From NCBI GenBank assembly GCA_021781455.1, contig JAJXWV010000052.1:1-57512 (forward strand): 57,512 nucleotides of DNA, in the 5' to 3' direction. Made by a program: the position numbers and the translations under genes. How positions within the stretch are numbered: position 1 is the stretch's first letter; every line of letters starts with the position of its first letter. This DNA comes from Acidobacteriota bacterium. GTDB lineage: Bacteria > Acidobacteriota > Thermoanaerobaculia > Gp7-AA8. Shown one piece after another: positions 10,122-44,701 of the stretch. A model generated the notes under the pieces. It had not been told where the DNA came from. It made no database searches and saw nothing but the letters and a program-made list of their open reading frames with translations.

Positions 10122-11696
10122 ATGACGGTCTCCACCGCTCCTCCTCATGCAGCCGCGCTCCCGGCCGAGCGCGTCGGAGCGCCGCCGGCGACCGAAAAGC
10201 ATCCCGGCGGTCTCTACGTCCTGTTCGGCACCGAGATGTGGGAGCGCTTCGGCTTCTACACGATGCTGGCCATGCTCACTCTCTACATGCGCGACGCCGG
10301 CGAAGGCTTCGGATGGTCGACTGCGCACGCCACCGGCGTCTACTCGTGGTACCAGGCCTGCGTCTACGCCTCGCCCCTGATCGGGGGCTGGCTGGCCGAC
10401 CGCTTCCTCGGCTACCGCAACGCCATCACCGTCGGCGGCCTGTTCTTCCTGGCCGGCTACCTGATGCTCTCCGTGCCGAAGAACGTGCCCGTCTTCTTCC
10501 TCTCGCTGGCGCTGCTCGTCATCGGCAACGGGTTCTTCAAGCCCAACGTCTCGTCGATGGTCGGCAACCTGTACAAGGAAGGAAGCCACCTCAAGGACCG
10601 CGCCTACCTGATCTTCTACATGGGCATCAACATCGGCGCATTTCTGGCGCCGATCTGCGCCGAATTCGTGCGGGGGCGCTTCGGCTTCAACCGCGCGTTC
10701 TCGGTCGCGGGATTCGGGATGCTGATCTGCCTGGCGATCTTCTGGGGATTCCGTCGTGCCACCGCGGGCGCAAACCGTCCGCGGGCCAAAGAGGAGACGC
10801 CGAACGCGGCCAGCGCGGCCATGGAAGCGATTCCGGAGTGGAAGCGCATCTTCGCGCTGATCGTGATCTTCCTGATCGTGATCGTCTTCTGGATGATCTT
10901 TCACCAGAACGGCAGCACCCTCACCTTCTGGGCGAACGACAACACCAACTGGAACGTCACCGGGATCATCTCCAACGCCATCAATCCGTTCTGGATCATC
11001 ACCCTGTCGTTGCCGCTGGCGTGGTTCTGGGGGTTCCTCGACCGGCGCGGACTGGAGCCCTCCACTCCGACGAAGATCGCCATCGGCATGCTGCTGACGG
11101 GCGTGTCTCTGCTGATCCTCTATTTCGCCGCGATCAGCGGCGGATACACGAAGCCCTCGGCACGTGTGGTGAAAGCTGCCGGTGCGCCTAATAGCTACTA
11201 CGTCGCCCTCCCGGACGCGTTGCGCGCGAACCTCGGTGTCCAGGCACCGGCCACGAAGGTGGACGTGCCGGTCAGGGGGAACGGCGGAACGCGCAGCGTC
11301 GAAGTGTGGGCGGCCAGCGCCGACGTCCCCCTGCGCGAAGGCGACCTCGTCGGCGTGTCGTCGCCGAACGGGCAATTGCAGCTGGAGGCTCTTCGGAAAG
11401 TCTCGCCGTTCTGGCTGATCCTCGCCTATTTCGTCATTTCGTTAGGCGAGCTGATGCTCAGCCCGATGGGACTGTCGCTGGTGTCCAAGGTCGCCCCGCC
11501 GCGCATGCGAGGCCTGATGATGGGCGGCTGGTTCCTGGCCACAGCCATCGGCAACAAGCTCACCGCGATCGGCGCGTTCTGGGACATCTGGAGCCACGCC
11601 CGCTTCTTCCTCACGCTCTCGATGATGGCCTTAGCCATGGCCGTGGTCCTGATCCTGATCCTGCGGCCGCTGAAGAAGGCCATGCCGGGCGTGTAG
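10122..11696 (+). CDS. POT/PTR2 family proton-coupled peptide transporter
   Basis: A 524-aa integral membrane protein that imports di- and tripeptides with protons. The family signature ExxERFxYY appears as EMWERFGFYTM at ~37-47 in TM1 and the PTR2 motif as FYMGINIGAFLAP. About 12 or more hydrophobic segments are visible. An insert of about 75 residues before the last membrane helices (VVKAAGAPNSYYVALPDA onward) looks like an extra soluble domain, seen in some bacterial POTs. AAGGAAG precedes the ATG at 10122. Its place beside two peptidases suggests uptake of their products. Confidence 0.93.
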   Translation: MTVSTAPPHAAALPAERVGAPPATEKHPGGLYVLFGTEMWERFGFYTMLAMLTLYMRDAGEGFGWSTAHATGVYSWYQACVYASPLIGGWLADRFLGYRNAITVGGLFFLAGYLMLSVPKNVPVFFLSLALLVIGNGFFKPNVSSMVGNLYKEGSHLKDRAYLIFYMGINIGAFLAPICAEFVRGRFGFNRAFSVAGFGMLICLAIFWGFRRATAGANRPRAKEETPNAASAAMEAIPEWKRIFALIVIFLIVIVFWMIFHQNGSTLTFWANDNTNWNVTGIISNAINPFWIITLSLPLAWFWGFLDRRGLEPSTPTKIAIGMLLTGVSLLILYFAAISGGYTKPSARVVKAAGAPNSYYVALPDALRANLGVQAPATKVDVPVRGNGGTRSVEVWAASADVPLREGDLVGVSSPNGQLQLEALRKVSPFWLILAYFVISLGELMLSPMGLSLVSKVAPPRMRGLMMGGWFLATAIGNKLTAIGAFWDIWSHARFFLTLSMMALAMAVVLILILRPLKKAMPGV

Positions 11697-34410: not shown

Positions 34411-34668
34411 ATGGCGAAGCGACGGACGGTCGAACCGCCGTACTGGCTCGTCGGTTTCGAGGTGTTCTGCGGCACGTGTCATGCCCTCTATGCGCATGCG
34501 GTCGCGGCGCACTGCGACGGCTGCGACCGCCCGCTCTGCCTGAGCTGTCGCGTCACGCGAAGCGGCCGGATCTTCTGTTCGGAATGCGACGAGAAAGAGA
34601 GGAAGCAGTGGCGGCACGCGCGATCTGGAAAGGCGTCATCGTCATCGGCAGGCAGAAGCTCCCGGTGA
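34411..34668 (+). CDS. Small Cys-rich zinc-binding protein
   Basis: An 85-aa protein with four CxxC pairs at C20/C23, C35/C38, C43/C46 and C56/C59, plus H24, H29 and H34. This spacing fits a cross-brace double zinc finger of B-box or RING-like appearance. I do not recognise the family. The basic, Ser-rich tail (from ~62) is read from DNA that overlaps the start of the first ku gene by 61 nt, so the two are co-transcribed and probably co-translated. A role with Ku is inferred from position only. Confidence 0.6.
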   Translation: MAKRRTVEPPYWLVGFEVFCGTCHALYAHAVAAHCDGCDRPLCLSCRVTRSGRIFCSECDEKERKQWRHARSGKASSSSAGRSSR

Positions 34669-35402
34669 AGCTCTACTCGGCAGTGCAGGACCGGACCATC
34701 CACTTTCGCCTGCTGCACCGCACCGATCACGCACCGGTCAAGCAGAAGCTCGTCGATGCCGGCAGCGGCAAGGAAGTGGGCGAGGATGAGGTGAGGAAGG
34801 CCTTTCCGGTCACCCGCAACCAGCTCGTGGCACTCGACGAGAAGGACCTGGAGAACCTCGAGCCGGAGCCTTCGCGCGACATCGAGATCAGCCGCTTCGT
34901 CGATCCACAGGACATCGACCATCGCTGGTACGAGCGCGCCTACTTCATCGGTCCCGATTCCGACAACGGCGACTACTTCGCCATCGCCGAGGCGCTGACG
35001 AAGACGAAGAAGGAAGGCGTCGCGCACTGGGTGATGCGCGGCAGGAGGTACCTCGGCGCGCTGCGGCCGGAAGGACCGTACCTGATGCTGATCACGCTCC
35101 GTTATGCCGACGAGATCGTCGACGCTTCCTCGCTCGAGGCGCCGGGCGGCCGCGCCCTCGACAAGCGCGAAGTGTCGATGGCCGAGCGGCTGGTCGAGGC
35201 ACTGGCCGGCCGCTTCGATCCGAGCGAGTACCGCGACGAATATCGCGCCCGGGTCATGGATCTCGTCGAAACCAAGGAGAAGGGCGGCAGCGTGAAGGTG
35301 AAGAAGTTCAGGCCGCGGCCGACCCGGGAAGGCGCGCTGACCAGTGCGCTCGAGGCCAGCCTGGCAGGGCTGGGAAGGAGAGCAGCCGGTGGCAAACGAT
35401 GA
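34608..35402 (+). CDS. ku: Ku homodimer/heterodimer protein, first copy
   Basis: A 264-aa DNA-end-binding protein of bacterial non-homologous end joining. The start is GTG at 34608, with AGAGAGGA six bases upstream; it gives the family N-terminus VAARAIWKGVIVIGRQKLPV, followed by KLYSAVQDRTIHFRLLH. Typical Ku-core motifs follow (EVRKAFPVTRNQLVALDEKD, ERAYFIGPD, LMLITLRYADEI, KREVSMAERLVEAL). It overlaps the preceding zinc-finger gene by 61 nt and the second ku by 14 nt. Confidence 0.93.
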   Translation: MAARAIWKGVIVIGRQKLPVKLYSAVQDRTIHFRLLHRTDHAPVKQKLVDAGSGKEVGEDEVRKAFPVTRNQLVALDEKDLENLEPEPSRDIEISRFVDPQDIDHRWYERAYFIGPDSDNGDYFAIAEALTKTKKEGVAHWVMRGRRYLGALRPEGPYLMLITLRYADEIVDASSLEAPGGRALDKREVSMAERLVEALAGRFDPSEYRDEYRARVMDLVETKEKGGSVKVKKFRPRPTREGALTSALEASLAGLGRRAAGGKR

Positions 35403-36285
35403 CGAAGAAGTGAGCGACGGCGGCGAGGAATCTGCCGGATACCGTTCCTTCTGGAGCGGCACGATCACATTCGGCCTGGTCACGGTGCCCGTGGCGTTGT
35501 TCCCCGCCAGCAGGCCGCGGGGAGTGGCCCTGCGCATGATCGACGGCGAGGGCACGCCGGTGGGGCGCCGCTACGTCTGCTCGAAAGACGGGCAGGATCT
35601 CGAATGGGACGAGATCGTCCGCGGGTACGAAGTCTCGAAAGGGAAGTTCGTGGTGGTCAGCGACGACGAGCTCGAAGCGATCGAGCCGCGCAAGTCGCGC
35701 GAGATCGATCTTCGCCTGTTCGTCCCGCACGACGACATCGACCCGGTGTACTTCGAGCGCGCCTACTACCTCGCGCCGGCCGGAGGGGCGAACAAGGCCT
35801 ACCGGCTGCTCGCGGCGGTGATGGAGAAGAGCGGGCGAATCGGCATCGCCACATTCGTCATGCGCGCCAGGGAGTACCTGGTGGCCATCATCGCGGAGAA
35901 GGGGATTCTCCGCGCCGAAACGCTCCGCTTCCAGGACGAGATCCGCAAGCCGGGAGAAGTCGGGCTGCCGAAGAAGGGCAAGGTCAGCGCCGCCGCGGAG
36001 AAGAAGTTCGAGACGCTCATCACGAAGCACAGCGGCAGAGTCGACTTCCACGAGTTCCTCGACCAGTACGCGAAGAACCTCGACGAGCTCGTGGAGAAGA
36101 AGCGGCGCGAAGGGAAGGATGTGGTCAAGGCACCCGCCGAGGCGGCCTCTTCGTCCGCAGGCGGAGAGACGAACGTCATCGACCTGATGCAGGTGCTGCG
36201 CCGCAGCCTGGCGGGGGAGGGAGCGCGCAAACCCGCGAAGCGTGTGGCCGCGGCCACAAAGAAGAGCTCGCGGAGGAAGAGTTAG
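35389..36285 (+). CDS. ku: Ku protein, second copy
   Basis: A 298-aa Ku paralogue, clearly diverged from its neighbour: YRSFWSGTITFGLVTVPVAL, EIVRGYEVSKGKFVVVSDDE, DIDPVYFERAYYLAP, KAYRLLAAVMEKSGRIGIAT. The start is GTG at 35389 with AAGGAG upstream, giving a 14-nt overlap with the first ku. The C-terminal ~50 residues are Lys/Arg/Ala-rich, a tail that in other bacterial Ku proteins helps DNA binding and ligase recruitment. No LigD gene is in this window. Confidence 0.93.
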   Translation: MANDDEEVSDGGEESAGYRSFWSGTITFGLVTVPVALFPASRPRGVALRMIDGEGTPVGRRYVCSKDGQDLEWDEIVRGYEVSKGKFVVVSDDELEAIEPRKSREIDLRLFVPHDDIDPVYFERAYYLAPAGGANKAYRLLAAVMEKSGRIGIATFVMRAREYLVAIIAEKGILRAETLRFQDEIRKPGEVGLPKKGKVSAAAEKKFETLITKHSGRVDFHEFLDQYAKNLDELVEKKRREGKDVVKAPAEAASSSAGGETNVIDLMQVLRRSLAGEGARKPAKRVAAATKKSSRRKS

Positions 36286-37619: not shown

Positions 37620-38384
37620 TCAATTCCCTGACATCGGCCGCTTCAGCACGATCAGCGTGAGGTCGTCGTCGCGCGCATCTTCCGCATAGGCGGCGGCCTC
37701 CTCGGCGACGCATGCCGTGATCGCGCGCGCACTCCGCGAACGACCGGCTCTCAGGGAGCGCTCGATGCGCTCGATACCGTATTCGCAGCCGTCCGCCGAC
37801 TTCGCCTCCAGCAGGCCATCGCTGTAGACGAGCAGCGATTCCTCCAGGTCGAGCCTCGTGGAGAACGAGATCCACGATGCCGTGGGTAGGATTCCGATCA
37901 CCGGGCCTGTGGAGTCGATCCGCTCGATCGATCCGTTGCGCCGCGCGATGAGCGGAGGGCAATGGCCGGCATTGGCGATGACGAGTGCCCCGTCGTCGCG
38001 GAGCTGTCCGACCACAGCGCTGACGAAGCGGTTCGCGGGAAGGAGCGGCCGAAGAAATGCCTGCAGGCGGAGCACCGTGGTCGCAGGGTGGACGTCGCTG
38101 GTCGCGCAGGATGCGAAACGCCGCTCCAGCTCTTCCTGCACCATTTCCATGACCACCGCCGCCGATAGTCCCTTGCCCGCGACGTCGCCTAACGCGAACC
38201 AGAGGCGGTCGCCGCACCGCTGCGTGAAGTAGAAGTCTCCTGTGAACGTGCGAGCCGGCCGGGAGACGGCGTGGAAATCGACAGCCGTGGATGACGAGGC
38301 GCTCGAAACGAAGAGCGGGAGCTGGGCCCCACCACGGCAACTCGGCCGTGCCGGGGAGCTTTGTGTAATCACTTCAGGAGCCAT
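37620..38384 (-). CDS. SpoIIE/PP2C-type serine phosphatase
   Basis: A 254-aa single-domain phosphatase. The metal-binding motifs are in ARTFTGDFYF and ALGDVAGKGLSAAVVMEM, then ANAGHCPPL, YSDGLLEA and ARDDDLTLIVLK. There is no sensor domain, so it probably acts in a partner-switching circuit, for example on an anti-sigma antagonist. GAGGTG precedes the ATG. It follows the sigma/anti-sigma pair on the same strand, with a palindromic element in between; whether it belongs to that circuit is unknown. Confidence 0.88.
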   Translation of the reverse strand: MAPEVITQSSPARPSCRGGAQLPLFVSSASSSTAVDFHAVSRPARTFTGDFYFTQRCGDRLWFALGDVAGKGLSAAVVMEMVQEELERRFASCATSDVHPATTVLRLQAFLRPLLPANRFVSAVVGQLRDDGALVIANAGHCPPLIARRNGSIERIDSTGPVIGILPTASWISFSTRLDLEESLLVYSDGLLEAKSADGCEYGIERIERSLRAGRSRSARAITACVAEEAAAYAEDARDDDLTLIVLKRPMSGN

Positions 38385-38404: not shown

Positions 38405-38487
38405 CAGGGACGCGCAGCAGCGCGTCCGCAACTCTCGTCGTGTCCTCGTGCCACCGGGCTGCGGACGCGCTGCTCTCGCGTCCCTAC
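38405..38487. repeat. GTAGGGACGCGC palindromic element, copy 3
   Basis: Arms GCAGGGACGCGCAGCAGCGC and GCGGACGCGCTGCTCTCGCG lie around a 30-nt centre. The right end, read on the minus strand as GGTAGGGACGC, supplies the TAG stop of the alkyltransferase fusion gene. Confidence 0.88.
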
Positions 38488-39359
38488 CGGAACGGCTGGC
38501 AATGCTGGCAGGGACGGAAGCCGCCCTTCACGGCCTCGCTCTCGCCGTGCAACGGGACGCGATTCTCTTCGCGGATGCGCCGGGCGTCGCGGCACGTCGG
38601 CAAGCAGACGACGTGGGTGGTCCGCGATCCGACGAGCCGGATGCCCTGGCGAGCGAGCGCATCGAGCTGCTCGAGGTCCACACCCTCGCGCTGGAGCAGC
38701 TGCCGTTTGGTCCTGCTGCCGAACGCGTATTTTCCGACGCCGCCCGAAAGAGGAACCACGCGATGGCAGGGAACCACGAACGGCACCGCGTTCCGCGCCA
38801 CGTAACTGGCGACCGCTCGGACGGCTTTCGGCTTTCCGACCTGGCGCGCCAGCCAGGAGTAGGTGCGCACCTCGCCGCGCGGAATCCGCAGCAGCGCATC
38901 CATCACCTTCCGCTCCAGCGGCGTCGCCTCGATCAGGTCGAGCCGCGGCTTGCGGACGCCTTCTCCGCTCAGCGCGTCATCGACCTGCCGGCGGACGTTC
39001 TCCGGCAACGCGCGGCGCTCGACGGCGCGGCCGTATCTCTTCGCATACAGCTTCCTGAAATCGTCGAACGAGCCGCGATGGATCAGGCGAATGCCGCGAT
39101 CGGAGAAGCCGACCCACACCGTGGGTGTGCCGGAGCCGATGCGGTCGAAGCCGTCCGCCAGGGCGATCGTTTCCCGGCACGACTGCGCCGGGGCGATGGC
39201 CAGGGCCTTCACCGCGTGCGCCAGGTGGTCGACGTCGTCGAACGAGTCGTGGCAGCTGGCGCAGCGGCTGATGTGCTGCTCCACAGCCTTGTTCTCCGCG
39301 CCGGCCAGCTCGCCCGTCCGCAGAGCGTCGATGCGCATCAAAGCCGATTTACACCGCAT
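38484..39359 (-). CDS. Anti-sigma zinc finger - O6-alkylguanine transferase - Ada metal-binding fusion
   Basis: A 291-aa three-part protein. Residues 1-40 form an anti-sigma zinc finger: C3-x25-H29-x3-C33-x2-C36. Residues ~60-230 are a complete O6-alkylguanine-DNA alkyltransferase with the acceptor cysteine C198 in VPCHRV and the upstream RTYSWLARQVGKPKAVRAV. Residues ~245-291 are an Ada-type metal site, C252-x3-C256-x27-C284-x2-C287, ending FRPCQHC. In E. coli Ada the metal domain comes first; here it is last. The ATG at 39359 has AGAGAGG eight bases upstream and overlaps the sigma gene by 11 nt (GTG at 39368 is possible). Each domain is seen; the link to sigma control is inferred. Confidence 0.9.
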   Translation of the reverse strand: MRCKSALMRIDALRTGELAGAENKAVEQHISRCASCHDSFDDVDHLAHAVKALAIAPAQSCRETIALADGFDRIGSGTPTVWVGFSDRGIRLIHRGSFDDFRKLYAKRYGRAVERRALPENVRRQVDDALSGEGVRKPRLDLIEATPLERKVMDALLRIPRGEVRTYSWLARQVGKPKAVRAVASYVARNAVPFVVPCHRVVPLSGGVGKYAFGSRTKRQLLQREGVDLEQLDALARQGIRLVGSRTTHVVCLPTCRDARRIREENRVPLHGESEAVKGGFRPCQHCQPFR

Positions 39360-39966
39360 AGGTGACACCTCTCTTTTCCAGCGCGTCCCGCAGCAGTTTC
39401 AGAGCGCGGAACACTTTCCCGCGGAGAGCCGCCTCGGACGAACCGAGGGTCCGGGCGATCTCCCCGTACGACATTTCCTCCATGAAGCGCAGCACGATCA
39501 GCTCGCGCGCATCGACCGGCAGGAGAGCGATGGCCCGCCGCAGCAGCTCCACCTCCTCCTGCCGCTCGAGATTCGAGCCGGCCGTCGCGACGAACGGACC
39601 GATGCGGCCGTCGTCGAACGAGTCGAGAGGCTGCTCGATCGCGCGCCCTTTCGACCTTCGTTTGTTCAGACAAAGATTCCGCACGGTGCGGAAGAGCCAC
39701 GGCCGGAGCATCAGCGACGCGCACCTGGCCTCGTCGTACTGGTGGGTGAGGGCCCGATGCGCGCGGACCATGGCGTCCTGCACGACCTCCTGCGCATCGA
39801 ACGGGTTCTGCAGCATGCCGTGGGCATAGGTGAAAAGAGGGGATTCGTAACGGTCGATCAGACGCTCGAACGCCCCAGCCTCGCAGCGATGGACGAGCAG
39901 GGCGAGGTTCTCGTCGTCGCCCTCAGCCGCCGCGGCCGCCTCGCCGCCGGTCCAGGAGTTCTTCAT
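39349..39966 (-). CDS. ECF-type RNA polymerase sigma factor
   Basis: A 205-aa sigma-70 family protein with region 2 at ~25-105 (FERLIDRYESPLFTYAHGML, DAQEVVQDAMVRAHRAL, LRPWLFRTVRNLCLNKRR) and region 4 at ~140-200 (LRRAIALLPVDARELIVLRF, MSYGEIARTLGSSEAALRGK). Regions 1 and 3 are lacking, as in ECF sigmas. The gene overlaps by 11 nt the fusion gene whose N-terminus is an anti-sigma zinc finger, the usual sigma/anti-sigma arrangement. No strong ribosome site precedes the ATG. An inverted repeat and a possible ECF-type GAAAC promoter box lie upstream. Confidence 0.93.
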   Translation of the reverse strand: MKNSWTGGEAAAAAEGDDENLALLVHRCEAGAFERLIDRYESPLFTYAHGMLQNPFDAQEVVQDAMVRAHRALTHQYDEARCASLMLRPWLFRTVRNLCLNKRRSKGRAIEQPLDSFDDGRIGPFVATAGSNLERQEEVELLRRAIALLPVDARELIVLRFMEEMSYGEIARTLGSSEAALRGKVFRALKLLRDALEKRGVTYAV

Positions 39967-39991
39967 ATCGCTAACAACACGGGTGGGGGAG

Positions 39992-40010
39992 GTTTCGTTC
40001 GCGTCGAAAC
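39992..40010. promoter_or_regulatory. Inverted repeat GTTTCG-N7-CGAAAC upstream of the sigma gene
   Basis: GTTTCG (39992-39997) and CGAAAC (40005-40010) are separated by 7 nt, 25 bp before the sigma ATG. On the minus strand its GAAAC half could be a -35 element, with GTT about 16 nt downstream resembling an ECF -10. It may be an operator or an autoregulated promoter. This is a weak, pattern-only call. Confidence 0.3.
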
Positions 40011-41442: not shown

Positions 41443-42384
41443 ATGTCGGTCCGCAAGATCCAGATCATCGACTCCCACACGGCCGGCGAGCCGACGCGCG
41501 TCGTCATCAGCGGCGGTCCCGATCTCGGCACCGGCTCGATGGCGGAACGGCGCGAGCGCTTCCGCCGCGATTTCGATCAGGTCCGCTCCGCCGTGGTCAA
41601 CGAACCGCGCGGGTCCGATCCGGTCGTCGGCGCCCTGCTCTGCAAGCCATCCGATCCGGCCTCCGCCGCCGGCGTGATCTTCTTCAACAACGTCGGATAC
41701 CTCGGCATGTGCGGCCACGGCACCATCGGCCTCGTCACGACGCTCGCCCATCTCGGCCGCGTCGCCGCAGGAGCGCATCGAATCGAAACGCCGGTCGGCG
41801 TCGTGACCGCGGAGCTTCTCCCGAGCGGCGAGGTGGCCGTCGCGAACGTCCCGAGCTATCGCCATCGCAAGGCCATCACCGTGCACACCGACGGCTTCGG
41901 CTCGTTCACCGGCGACGTTGCCTGGGGCGGCAACTGGTTCTTCCTGGTCAACGATCACCGAGAGGAGCTCGACCTGCGCCGCGTCGACCGTCTCACCGAA
42001 GTCACATGGGCGATCCGCGACGCGCTCGAGAAGAACGGAATCACCGGTGCAGGCGGCGCAGAGATCGATCACATCGAGCTCTTTTCCACGCCGCATCGCG
42101 AGGATGCCGACAGCCGCAATTTCGTGCTCTGTCCGGGCAAGGCCTACGACCGCTCTCCGTGCGGCACTGGCACGAGCGCGAAGCTGGCCTGCCTGTTCGA
42201 AGACGGCAAGCTCGCCGAAGGGGAAGCGTGGCGGCAGGAGAGCATTGTCGGCAGCCTGTTCGAAGGATCGGTCAAGGTCGCCGGCGGCACGATCCAGCCG
42301 ACGATCCGCGGCTCCGCGTTCGTGAACGCCGAGGCTACGCTGATCCTCGATGATCGAGATCCGTTCTGCTGGGGGATACGGTGA
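41443..42384 (+). CDS. 4-hydroxyproline 2-epimerase (proline racemase family)
   Basis: A 313-aa cofactor-free epimerase that turns trans-4-hydroxy-L-proline into cis-4-hydroxy-D-proline, the first step of the pathway encoded here. The two catalytic cysteines are C90 in GMCGHGT and C240 in [10 protein letters not shown], as expected for 4-hydroxyproline epimerases rather than dehydratases (which have Thr in the second site). [14 protein letters not shown] is the family N-terminus. It is the first gene of a four-gene set on the plus strand. Confidence 0.93.
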
Positions 42385-42385
42385 A

Positions 42386-42464
42386 GACGGCAGACCGCAG
42401 ACGCCAGGCCGCAGACGGTCCGCGGTCTGCGGTCCGTGGTCTGCGGTCCGTGGTCTGCGGTCTC
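42386..42464. repeat. Inverted arms of GCAGACC / GGTCTGC words
   Basis: GCAGACCGCAGACGCCAGGC plus CGCAGAC on the left faces several GGTCTGCGGTCCGTGGTCTGC-type words on the right. It ends 2 bp before the next start codon and occupies the place where a ribosome-binding site would be. Confidence 0.88.
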
Positions 42465-42466
42465 AA

Positions 42467-43714
42467 ATGAAACACATCCTCATCATCGGTGGCGGCATCA
42501 TCGGGCTCTCGACGGCCTACTACGCGAGCCGCCGCGGGCATCGCGTGACTGTGGTCGAGCGGGGAGATGCCACGCACGACGGCTGCTCGTTTGGGAATGC
42601 GGGCTACATCACGCCGAGCCATTTCATCCCGCTCGCGGCACCGGGCGCCGTACGTCTGGCGCTGCGGTGGATGAAGGATCCGGAAAGCCCCTTCTACGTC
42701 CGGCCGCGGCTCAGCGCCGAGCTGCTCTCGTGGGGCTGGAGATTCTGGCGGGCCTCGACGCCGCGGCGGGTCGAGCGCGCCGCGCCGCTGCTGGCGGAGA
42801 TCAATCTCGCCAGCCTTGCTCTGTACGAGGAGCTCGCGGCCGAGGCGGACGACTTCGGGCTGCAGAAGAACGGCCTGCTCATCGTCGTTCGGAGCGACCG
42901 CGCGCTCGAGGAAGAGGCTCACGTCGCGGAGCTGGCGCATCGGCTCGGAATGCCGGCCGAGATCGTCGACGCGAAAGGTGTCGCCGCGATGGAGCCCGAG
43001 ATTCGCATGAGCATCGCCGGCGCGGCGTTCTATCCACGCGACGCGTGCTTCGCGCCGGCCACCCTGATGGGCAGCATGAAGCGCCGGCTCGAGGAGCGCG
43101 GCGTCCAGTTCGCCTGGGATACGAACGTGACCGGCTGGCGACTCGGCAACGATCGAGTGGAGGCGGTCCGCACCTCGCGCGGCGATCTCTCCGCCGATGA
43201 GTACGTCGTCAGCGGCGGGTCGTGGTCGCCGTCGATCGTTCGCGGCCTGAAGCTGAAACTCCCGATGCAGGGCGGTAAGGGCTACAGCCTCACCCTTCCG
43301 CACCCGCCGCACAAGTCGAAACGCGCCATCATCCTCGGCGAGGCGCGCGTGGCCGTCACTCCGTTAGGCGAAGGCATCCGCTTCGGCGGGACGATGGAGA
43401 TTGCCGGGCTCCAGGAGCGCGTCAACCCGGCACGCGTGCGCGGAATCGTGAAGGCCGTCGTGCGCTACTTCCCCGATTTCACTGCCGACGATTTCCGCGG
43501 CGTCGACCCGTGGTACGGCTTTCGCCCCTGCTCGCCCGACGGGCTGCCCTACGTGGGCCGCTTCGCCCGATACGCAAACCTCTCCGCTGCCACGGGCCAC
43601 GCCATGATGGGCATGAGCCTCGGTCCGATCACCGGCAAGCTGATGTCCGAAGTGCTCTCCGACGAGCCCCCGTCGATCGATATCGGCATGCTGTCGCCGG
43701 ACCGGTACGCGTAG
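42467..43714 (+). CDS. FAD-dependent D-amino-acid (D-hydroxyproline) dehydrogenase
   Basis: A 415-aa DadA-like flavoprotein. The dinucleotide-binding motif IIGGGIIGLSTAYYASRRGH is at ~5-24. The C-terminal end (DPWYGFRPCSPDGLPYVGRF, ATGHAMMGMSLGPITGKL) is typical of amine/amino-acid oxidoreductases. By operon position it should oxidise cis-4-hydroxy-D-proline to 1-pyrroline-4-hydroxy-2-carboxylate. The start at 42467 follows directly on a tandem-word repeat and has no visible ribosome site, so translation may depend on coupling or a leaderless-like mode. Confidence 0.9.
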   Translation: MKHILIIGGGIIGLSTAYYASRRGHRVTVVERGDATHDGCSFGNAGYITPSHFIPLAAPGAVRLALRWMKDPESPFYVRPRLSAELLSWGWRFWRASTPRRVERAAPLLAEINLASLALYEELAAEADDFGLQKNGLLIVVRSDRALEEEAHVAELAHRLGMPAEIVDAKGVAAMEPEIRMSIAGAAFYPRDACFAPATLMGSMKRRLEERGVQFAWDTNVTGWRLGNDRVEAVRTSRGDLSADEYVVSGGSWSPSIVRGLKLKLPMQGGKGYSLTLPHPPHKSKRAIILGEARVAVTPLGEGIRFGGTMEIAGLQERVNPARVRGIVKAVVRYFPDFTADDFRGVDPWYGFRPCSPDGLPYVGRFARYANLSAATGHAMMGMSLGPITGKLMSEVLSDEPPSIDIGMLSPDRYA

Positions 43715-43718
43715 CTCC

Positions 43719-43769
43719 CCGTCACTCTGAGCCGGCGGAGACATGTTCCCGTGTCTCAGCATGACGGGA
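43719..43769. repeat. Short CACTCTGAGCCGGCGG element
   Basis: CCGTCACTCTGAGCCGGCGG followed by a diverged right end (GTCTCAGCATGACGGGA) and little in between. It is the minimal member of the family, and lies inside the hydroxyproline operon. Confidence 0.8.
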
Positions 43770-43795
43770 TCGCGCTGGAGTTACGATTGCGCCCC

Positions 43796-44701
43796 ATGAA
43801 CATGAACTGGCAGGGCGTCATGCCGGCGATCACGACTCCGTTCGACGAGAAGCTCGAGGTGGATCACACATTTCTCGCTCGTCACGCCTCGTGGATGGTC
43901 GATGCCGGCTGCAGCGGCATCGTGGCCCTCGGCTCGCTGGGCGAGGGAGCAACACTTCAGGAGGACGAGAAGATCGCCGTCCTGAAGACTTGCATCGGCG
44001 CGGTCGGGCAGCGCGTGCCGGTGGTGGCCGCCATCTCCGCATTATCGACCTCCGATGCGGTCAGGCTCGCCAGACGCGCCGCGGACGCTGGCTGCAGCGG
44101 TCTCATGGTCCTGCCGCCGTACGTCTATTCGACCGACTGGCGGGAGATGAAGGCGCACATGGTGGCCGTCCTGCGCGCCACGAAGCTCTCCTGCATGCTC
44201 TACAACAACCCGATCGCCTACCGTACCGACTTTCTTCCCGAGCAGGTCGCCGAGCTCGCCGCTGAGCACGAAAACCTGCAGGCCATCAAGGAATCGTCGG
44301 CGGACGTGCGGCGGCTCGCGGCCATCCGCTCGCTGATCGGCACGCGTCTGGCGCTGTTCATCGGCGTGGACGATCTGATCGTGGAGGGGATCGACGCCGG
44401 TGCAGTGGGCTGGATCGCCGGCCTGGTGAACGCTTTGCCGGTCGAGTCGGTGCAGTTGTTCGAACGCGCCAGCCGCAGCCGGCGTGAATCGGCGTTCGAG
44501 CTCTATCGCTGGTTTCTTCCCCTGCTGCGGCTCGATACCGTGACGAAGTTCGTGCAGCTGATCAAGCTAGTGCAGGCGGAGGTGGGGATGGGCAGCCCGC
44601 GGGTGCGGCCGCCGCGGCTGGAGCTCGCCGGCGAGGAGCGTGAAGCGGCGCTGCGCACGATTCGCGATTGCCTCGCCAGCCGGCCGGAGATGGCTCGATG
44701 A
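43796..44701 (+). CDS. DapA-superfamily lyase, probable 1-pyrroline-4-hydroxy-2-carboxylate deaminase
   Basis: A 301-aa TIM-barrel aldolase-type enzyme. The Schiff-base lysine is K165 in LQAIKESSADVRR and the catalytic tyrosine is Y136 in MLYNNPIAYRTD; GSLGEGATL replaces the GTTGE of true dihydrodipicolinate synthases. In hydroxyproline operons this family deaminates 1-pyrroline-4-hydroxy-2-carboxylate to 2-oxoglutarate semialdehyde, and the gene order here fits that. Its stop overlaps the next start (ATGA). The chosen ATG lacks a clear ribosome site (ATG at 43802 is an alternative). Confidence 0.9.
   Translation: MNMNWQGVMPAITTPFDEKLEVDHTFLARHASWMVDAGCSGIVALGSLGEGATLQEDEKIAVLKTCIGAVGQRVPVVAAISALSTSDAVRLARRAADAGCSGLMVLPPYVYSTDWREMKAHMVAVLRATKLSCMLYNNPIAYRTDFLPEQVAELAAEHENLQAIKESSADVRRLAAIRSLIGTRLALFIGVDDLIVEGIDAGAVGWIAGLVNALPVESVQLFERASRSRRESAFELYRWFLPLLRLDTVTKFVQLIKLVQAEVGMGSPRVRPPRLELAGEEREAALRTIRDCLASRPEMAR

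Follow-up and report, generated by a model that had tools for sequence, protein, structure and literature searches.

The window analysed here, a stretch of 57,512 nucleotides from a soil bacterium of the Acidobacteriota, harbors at positions 38484-39966 of the minus strand an ECF sigma factor gene followed by a gene encoding a three-part fusion protein. Both open reading frames were found exactly where a first-pass annotation of this DNA had placed them, as was the 11-nt overlap that it had reported with the 205-aa ECF gene, counted from the fusion ATG and kept in relatives. The features of the locus, from upstream to downstream, are:

39976..40001, minus strand: predicted ECF-type autoregulatory promoter, CGAACG-N14-CGTGTT, ending 9 nt before the sigma ATG
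39349..39966, minus strand: ECF sigma factor, 205 aa, ATG start (Sigma70_r2 E 3.5e-12, Sigma70_r4_2 E 2.8e-12)
39349..39359, minus strand: overlap of the sigma stop with the fusion ATG, 11 nt
38484..39359, minus strand: fusion protein, 291 aa from the ATG, consisting of an anti-sigma domain, an O6-alkylguanine transferase (OGT) and an Ada metal site
39162..39359, minus strand: class I zinc anti-sigma domain, residues 1-66, ligands C3, H29, C33 and C36 (zf-HC2; PDB profile and model matches)
38925..39161, minus strand: OGT N-terminal (ribonuclease-H-like) domain region, residues 67-145 (alignment to 1sfe)
38679..38918, minus strand: OGT DNA-binding and active-site domain, with C198-H199 in PCHRV, E225, N190, R181 and Y167 (PF01035 E 2.6e-27)
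38493..38639, minus strand: Ada-type metal site, C252, C256, C284 and C287 (PF02805 E 9e-10; profile matches to 1adn and 1u8b)
37620..38384, minus strand: stand-alone SpoIIE/RsbU-type PP2C phosphatase, 99 nt downstream of the fusion (PF07228 E 9.9e-36)

The sigma protein is about 200 residues long and, at the Pfam cut-offs, contains regions 2 and 4 only, which identifies it as an ECF factor; its closest sequence relatives in the PDB are sigma-E and AlgU-type ECF factors. The fusion gene has a second possible start, a GTG located 9 nt upstream of the ATG. Nearly all close relatives of the window locus retain the ATG (protein beginning MRC or MQC) together with the 11-nt overlap, and the same overlap is found in nearly all Zixiibacteriota-like loci and loci of type A, in which the fusion carries the anti-sigma domain, the exceptions being L026, with an overlap of 22 nt, and L087 and L088, with gaps. 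This arrangement suggests that translation of sigma factor and fusion is coupled. The phosphatase gene is probably a member of the same operon, and in families f1, f53 and f2 nearly every type A locus has a phosphatase gene of this type after the fusion gene. Elsewhere in the window are two overlapping Ku-family genes in tandem (34476-36285, plus strand) and a run of genes that by eye resembles a hydroxyproline-breakdown cluster (41443-44701, plus strand), with proline-racemase-like, FAD amino-acid oxidase-like and dihydrodipicolinate-synthase-like members.

In Pfam the N-terminal part of the fusion matches zf-HC2 over residues 3-37 with 23.0 bits against a cut-off of 22.2. Since this score is barely above the cut-off, the anti-sigma identity was examined further by profile and structure. 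A profile of the N-terminal 73 residues, compared with all PDB sequences, had RsiW as its best match (E 8e-4), followed by DdvA and RslA and, further down, RsrA. AlphaFold2 modelled the same part alone with a mean pLDDT of 90, and when this model was compared by Foldseek with 350,542 PDB chains the best 14 matches were all anti-sigma chains (RslA, MucA, RskA and ChrR), with E-values of 0.4-3 that are weak, as expected for a domain of only 73 residues. VIA-align superposed the model on MucA with a Z of 6.3 and an rmsd of 2.1 A over 53 residues, and it also aligns to RslA, RskA and ChrR. The zinc-ligand pattern C...HxxxCxxC is present in the window protein and in 22/22 type A members. The N-terminal part is thus predicted to adopt the class I anti-sigma fold, and this fold, together with the gene pairing, suggests that it may hold the cognate sigma factor.

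The remainder of the protein is related to Ada. A profile of fusion residues 67-229 aligns to the C-terminal half of E. coli Ada (1sfe, E 1.5e-26), the same structure being the best Foldseek match of the middle part of the fusion model (E 9.4e-11), and the whole fusion was modelled with a mean pLDDT of 91. DNA_binding_1 (PF01035) spans residues 148-227. Ada_Zn_binding (PF02805) covers residues 241-289, corresponding to profile positions 17-64 of 65, with C252 at the methyl-acceptor position of Ada; in a profile search this part matches the N-Ada structures 1adn and 1u8b, the family profile being what found them, as a phmmer search of the PDB with only the Ada-site fragment had no match. The intact zinc finger, alkyltransferase and four-Cys metal site described in the first-pass annotation are all real: C3, H29, C33, C36, C198, H199, E225, C252, C256, C284 and C287 do not vary between the window protein and 20 relatives with identities of 42-64% (21 sequences in total).

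The fusion is present in 18/18 genomes of the window's family, full length in 16 and as contig-edge fragments in two, and therefore does not reflect a chance joining. The nearest named relatives are metagenome bins of Thermoanaerobaculia and 'gp7' Acidobacteria. Beyond the family, fusions were found in other Acidobacteriota, in a Zixiibacteriota-like group (13/16 genomes) and in Actinomycetota (10/250 genomes of the order of Actinomycetospora). Whether proteins joining zf-HC2, OGT and Ada-type domains sit beside sigma genes had been proposed as a check, and they do: 56 fusions with readable upstream DNA were tabulated from Acidobacteriota, the Zixiibacteriota-like group and Actinomycetota, and immediately upstream of every one lies an ECF gene, in most cases with an overlap of 4 to 22 nt and otherwise with a short gap. 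We also considered that an ECF gene might lie near any OGT gene by chance; this was rejected, since such an ECF gene occurred within 5 kb of 0/57 plain OGT loci recovered in the same scan. One Actinomycetospora genome (G311; L183, L187, L211 and L212) harbors four ECF-OGT pairs, only one of which includes the Ada metal site.

The predicted promoter of the window locus recurs, with no mismatch and 9 nt before the sigma start, in nearly all family relatives. In a more general form, [GC]AAC-N14/15-[CGT]GTGTT (SAAC-N14/15-BGTGTT), it was found within the 130 nt upstream of the sigma gene in 46/50 loci outside family f28 (that is, not of type B), where 0.055 would be expected from shuffled sequences. 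Most type A loci and many actinobacterial ones have 9 nt between the end of the site and the start codon, implying a near-leaderless message. A conserved site before a sigma gene is the expected signature of autoregulation, and we infer that the sigma factor uses it. In one genome of the set, two identical inverted copies of the promoter and start region lie 1 kb apart (G015:C82, 9322-9359 on the minus strand and 10351-10388 on the plus strand); this duplication is possibly an assembly artefact.

A pattern scan for further copies of the promoter gave candidate regulon members. In Actinomycetota the pattern has many matches within coding sequences (GTG TTC codons), and matches were counted there only if within about 40 nt of a gene start. 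With this restriction, the genes that follow the site at 8-37 nt are Oxygenase-NA (PF09859, a family to which Pfam ascribes action on damaged DNA) in both G566 and G522, a second OGT in G312 and an SDR in G522; in G570 a related SDR gene is slightly further from its site. An Oxygenase-NA gene also lies just downstream of the fusion in family f28 and in Actinomycetospora, and an AlkB-type gene lies nearby at L225. In Acidobacteriota, the site precedes DUF1203 genes by 17-24 nt in three genomes (L314, L319 and L329) and Class I SAM-methyltransferase genes by 8-10 nt in three others (L316, L321 and L322), and from its promoter the DUF1203 protein may be an alkylation-response protein that has so far gone unstudied. 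Most other matches look like chance. The scan of the window's own genome gave extra sites on two contigs (G000:C31 and C90) with no clear target, and no second target was identified there.

The OGT-domain tree, which includes 66 further OGTs, places 50 of the 56 ECF-linked ones in one clade (SH-aLRT 91) and the six of family f28 in a separate one. The sigma tree gives the same groups, its deep joins being unsure owing to long branches. The f28 loci (L030, L031, L034, L035, L037 and L038) carry a module of ECF, OGT-Ada and Oxygenase-NA genes with a different promoter, TTCCACC-N15/19-GTATAA, in 6/6, and this module is apparently independent of the 50-member clade. Because both the OGT clade and the promoter of f28 are distinct, the pairing of ECF with OGT-Ada seems to have been assembled at least twice. 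Some genomes of family f37 (L029, L033, L036 and L094) harbor a stand-alone OGT, without anti-sigma or Ada parts, that falls inside the ECF-linked clade, an apparent case of one later loss of the ECF linkage.

A general feature of the fusions is the unequal conservation of their parts. Cys198, His199, Glu225 and Asn190 are invariant in 56/56 and R181 is kept in 55/56, whereas the zinc ligands are decayed or absent in half of the lineages and the Ada metal site, complete wherever the domain is present and readable, is absent in 7/15 actinobacterial fusions. The OGT is therefore the constant part. The first-pass annotation had regarded homologues lacking the zinc finger as evidence against its proposal. 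Such homologues do exist: in Actinomycetota, L028 and family f28 the ligands and the whole three-helix part are missing; the ECF gene is nevertheless still adjacent. In these zinc-less members a short helix remains before the OGT, at the place of anti-sigma helix 4, and according to PMC7406223 it is helix 4 that contacts sigma2 in known class I complexes. By analogy, the short helix may contact sigma2 as well; since it is all that precedes the OGT, the anti-sigma function of zinc-less members is uncertain. Pfam gives no zf-HC2 match even for the zinc-intact L191, which may explain why the anti-sigma part has been overlooked.

This pattern bears on what the sensor could be. The zinc anti-sigma domain itself could sense oxidants, electrophiles or zinc loss, as in RsrA or ChrR, with the OGT and Ada parts as co-controlled cargo. 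The H-x3-C-x2-C motif and C3 are intact and invariant in type A, cytoplasmic zinc anti-sigma factors are often redox sensors according to PMC7406223, and electrophilic alkylating agents attack thiols too. The loss of the ligands in so many members, including 10/12 tabulated Zixiibacteriota-like proteins (L190-L201) that are otherwise intact, while OGT and ECF pairing persist, argues against the zinc finger as sensor, and the promoter copies lie before DNA-demethylase and OGT genes rather than thiol-redox genes; we consider this explanation unlikely. It could also be that the OGT senses by binding alkylated DNA, with no need for alkyl acceptance, and that docking on the lesion pulls the anti-sigma domain off the sigma factor. 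Alkyltransferase-like proteins that lack the cysteine show that lesion binding alone can signal, and nearly all members retain R181, Y167 and N190, which contact DNA. Against this, the invariance of Cys198, His199 and Glu225 in all tabulated fusions implies that catalysis is under selection, and no member without the active-site cysteine was found among the 56, so that sensing by binding appears improbable.

The fusion might, on the other hand, be no damage-gated inhibitor but a mere co-expression device, or a positive cofactor, the methylated fusion aiding sigma at promoters. Many members have no recognisable anti-sigma domain, the ECF122 group is filed without an anti-sigma factor in a review (PMC8999054), and there is a precedent in methylated Ada, which according to PMC4437013 acts positively with RNA polymerase. 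Since type A carries a complete class I anti-sigma fold that matches known anti-sigma proteins in both sequence and structure, we regard this as very unlikely. The repair enzyme is the best candidate sensor, given the domain fusion, the ECF adjacency, the cross-phylum conservation and the link to alkylation-repair genes. The annotation had proposed sensing at either alkyl-accepting site; of the two, only the OGT cysteine is universal and the Ada site is dispensable, which makes alkyl transfer to the OGT the likelier trigger, with the Ada site and the zinc finger as accessories that lineages lose.

Among repair proteins that sense their own substrate through suicide alkylation, Ada is the textbook example. 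E. coli Ada, like the fusion, is a single protein with both an OGT and a four-Cys metal site, and it is an autoregulated transcription regulator, a role that is only predicted for the fusion. The two differ in that Ada has an N-terminal metal site and, between this and the OGT, an AraC-type HTH, where the fusion has an anti-sigma domain and a C-terminal metal site, and in that some relatives of the fusion have no Ada site at all. The Ada/AdaA-AdaB and Ada-AlkA regulators likewise use alkyl acceptance as a switch for repair-gene expression, as proposed here, but act through AraC-type DNA binding. Pfam found no HTH_18 in the fusion, which is therefore not an Ada-type regulator, however Ada-like its proposed working. 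In the window's own genome, listed as 100% complete, PF02805 has no match besides the fusion and the single HTH_18 match is a 138-aa frame on a different contig, so that the fusion is the only Ada-like regulator visible. Within the family a second strong Ada metal domain was found only in G003, G004, G006 and G012 (frames of 441-563 aa), and an AraC HTH in the same frame was confirmed only in G004.

With RsrA, ChrR, RslA and RsiW the fusion shares the class I domain, the HxxxCxxC zinc motif and a gene that adjoins and overlaps its ECF gene. The sensor half of these proteins is a cupin, a redox disulfide or a membrane segment, whereas in the fusion it would be a suicide DNA-repair enzyme, and, unlike them, relatives of the fusion can lose the zinc ligands. 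The closest described case is that of the ECF122 sigma factors, whose genes, according to the review cited above (PMC8999054, which refers to the ECF reclassification), have that of a 6-O-methylguanine-DNA methyltransferase as a conserved neighbour and which are listed there without a cognate anti-sigma factor. The likeness lies in the neighbourhood, and the neighbour in type A differs in carrying an anti-sigma domain. A literature search for an anti-sigma factor joined with an alkyltransferase gave nothing relevant beyond this remark on ECF122. The earlier statement that no such system has been described was hence too strong; the OGT-ECF neighbourhood was already known, and it is the anti-sigma fusion, its spread and its regulon that appear to be new.

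Our preferred reading, to which we assign a probability of about 0.6, is that the locus encodes an alkylation response that is autoregulated and independent of Ada, with a suicide repair enzyme as the anti-sigma factor and with alkylation driving release of the sigma factor. What stands of the initial interpretation is that an anti-sigma-type domain and an intact alkyltransferase are joined next to an ECF gene with predicted autoregulation, that this is conserved across phyla and that there is a link to genes of alkylation repair; the zinc finger proved not to be essential and the Ada site dispensable. In the resting cell, the N-terminal domain would hold sigma as MucA, RslA or ChrR hold theirs. 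An alkyl group taken by Cys198 of the OGT, or by Cys252 of the Ada site, would spend the single-use fusion, which would then change conformation or be degraded and release sigma. Free sigma would transcribe its own operon from the SAAC-N14/15-BGTGTT promoter, giving more sigma and more unused OGT for DNA repair, as well as targets elsewhere that vary by lineage (demethylase, OGT, SDR, methyltransferase and DUF1203 genes). Once the damage is cleared, unused OGT fusion would re-capture sigma and the response would end. Speaking against this reading, the genes behind the extra promoter sites of Acidobacteriota (DUF1203 and SAM methyltransferase) are no textbook repair genes, and the window's own genome yielded no second target.

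In a wider form, for which we see about even odds, this would be an adaptive response other than that of Ada, with at least two origins and with regulons in at least three phyla that include genes of unknown function such as DUF1203. Each repaired lesion would irreversibly spend one inhibitor, sigma release would count repair events, and newly made, unalkylated enzyme would reset the system. Such a scheme predicts that one inhibitor is lost per lesion and that C198A abolishes induction, and it puts forward DUF1203 proteins, SDR proteins and SAM methyltransferases as new alkylation-response genes. If true, it would represent a second, apparently independently assembled form of Ada-like sensing, in which a sigma factor replaces the activator, and sigma factors so far listed with an alkyltransferase neighbour but without an anti-sigma factor would have found their missing regulator. 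It would also provide an explanation of how alkylation might be sensed in bacteria that lack the usual Ada.
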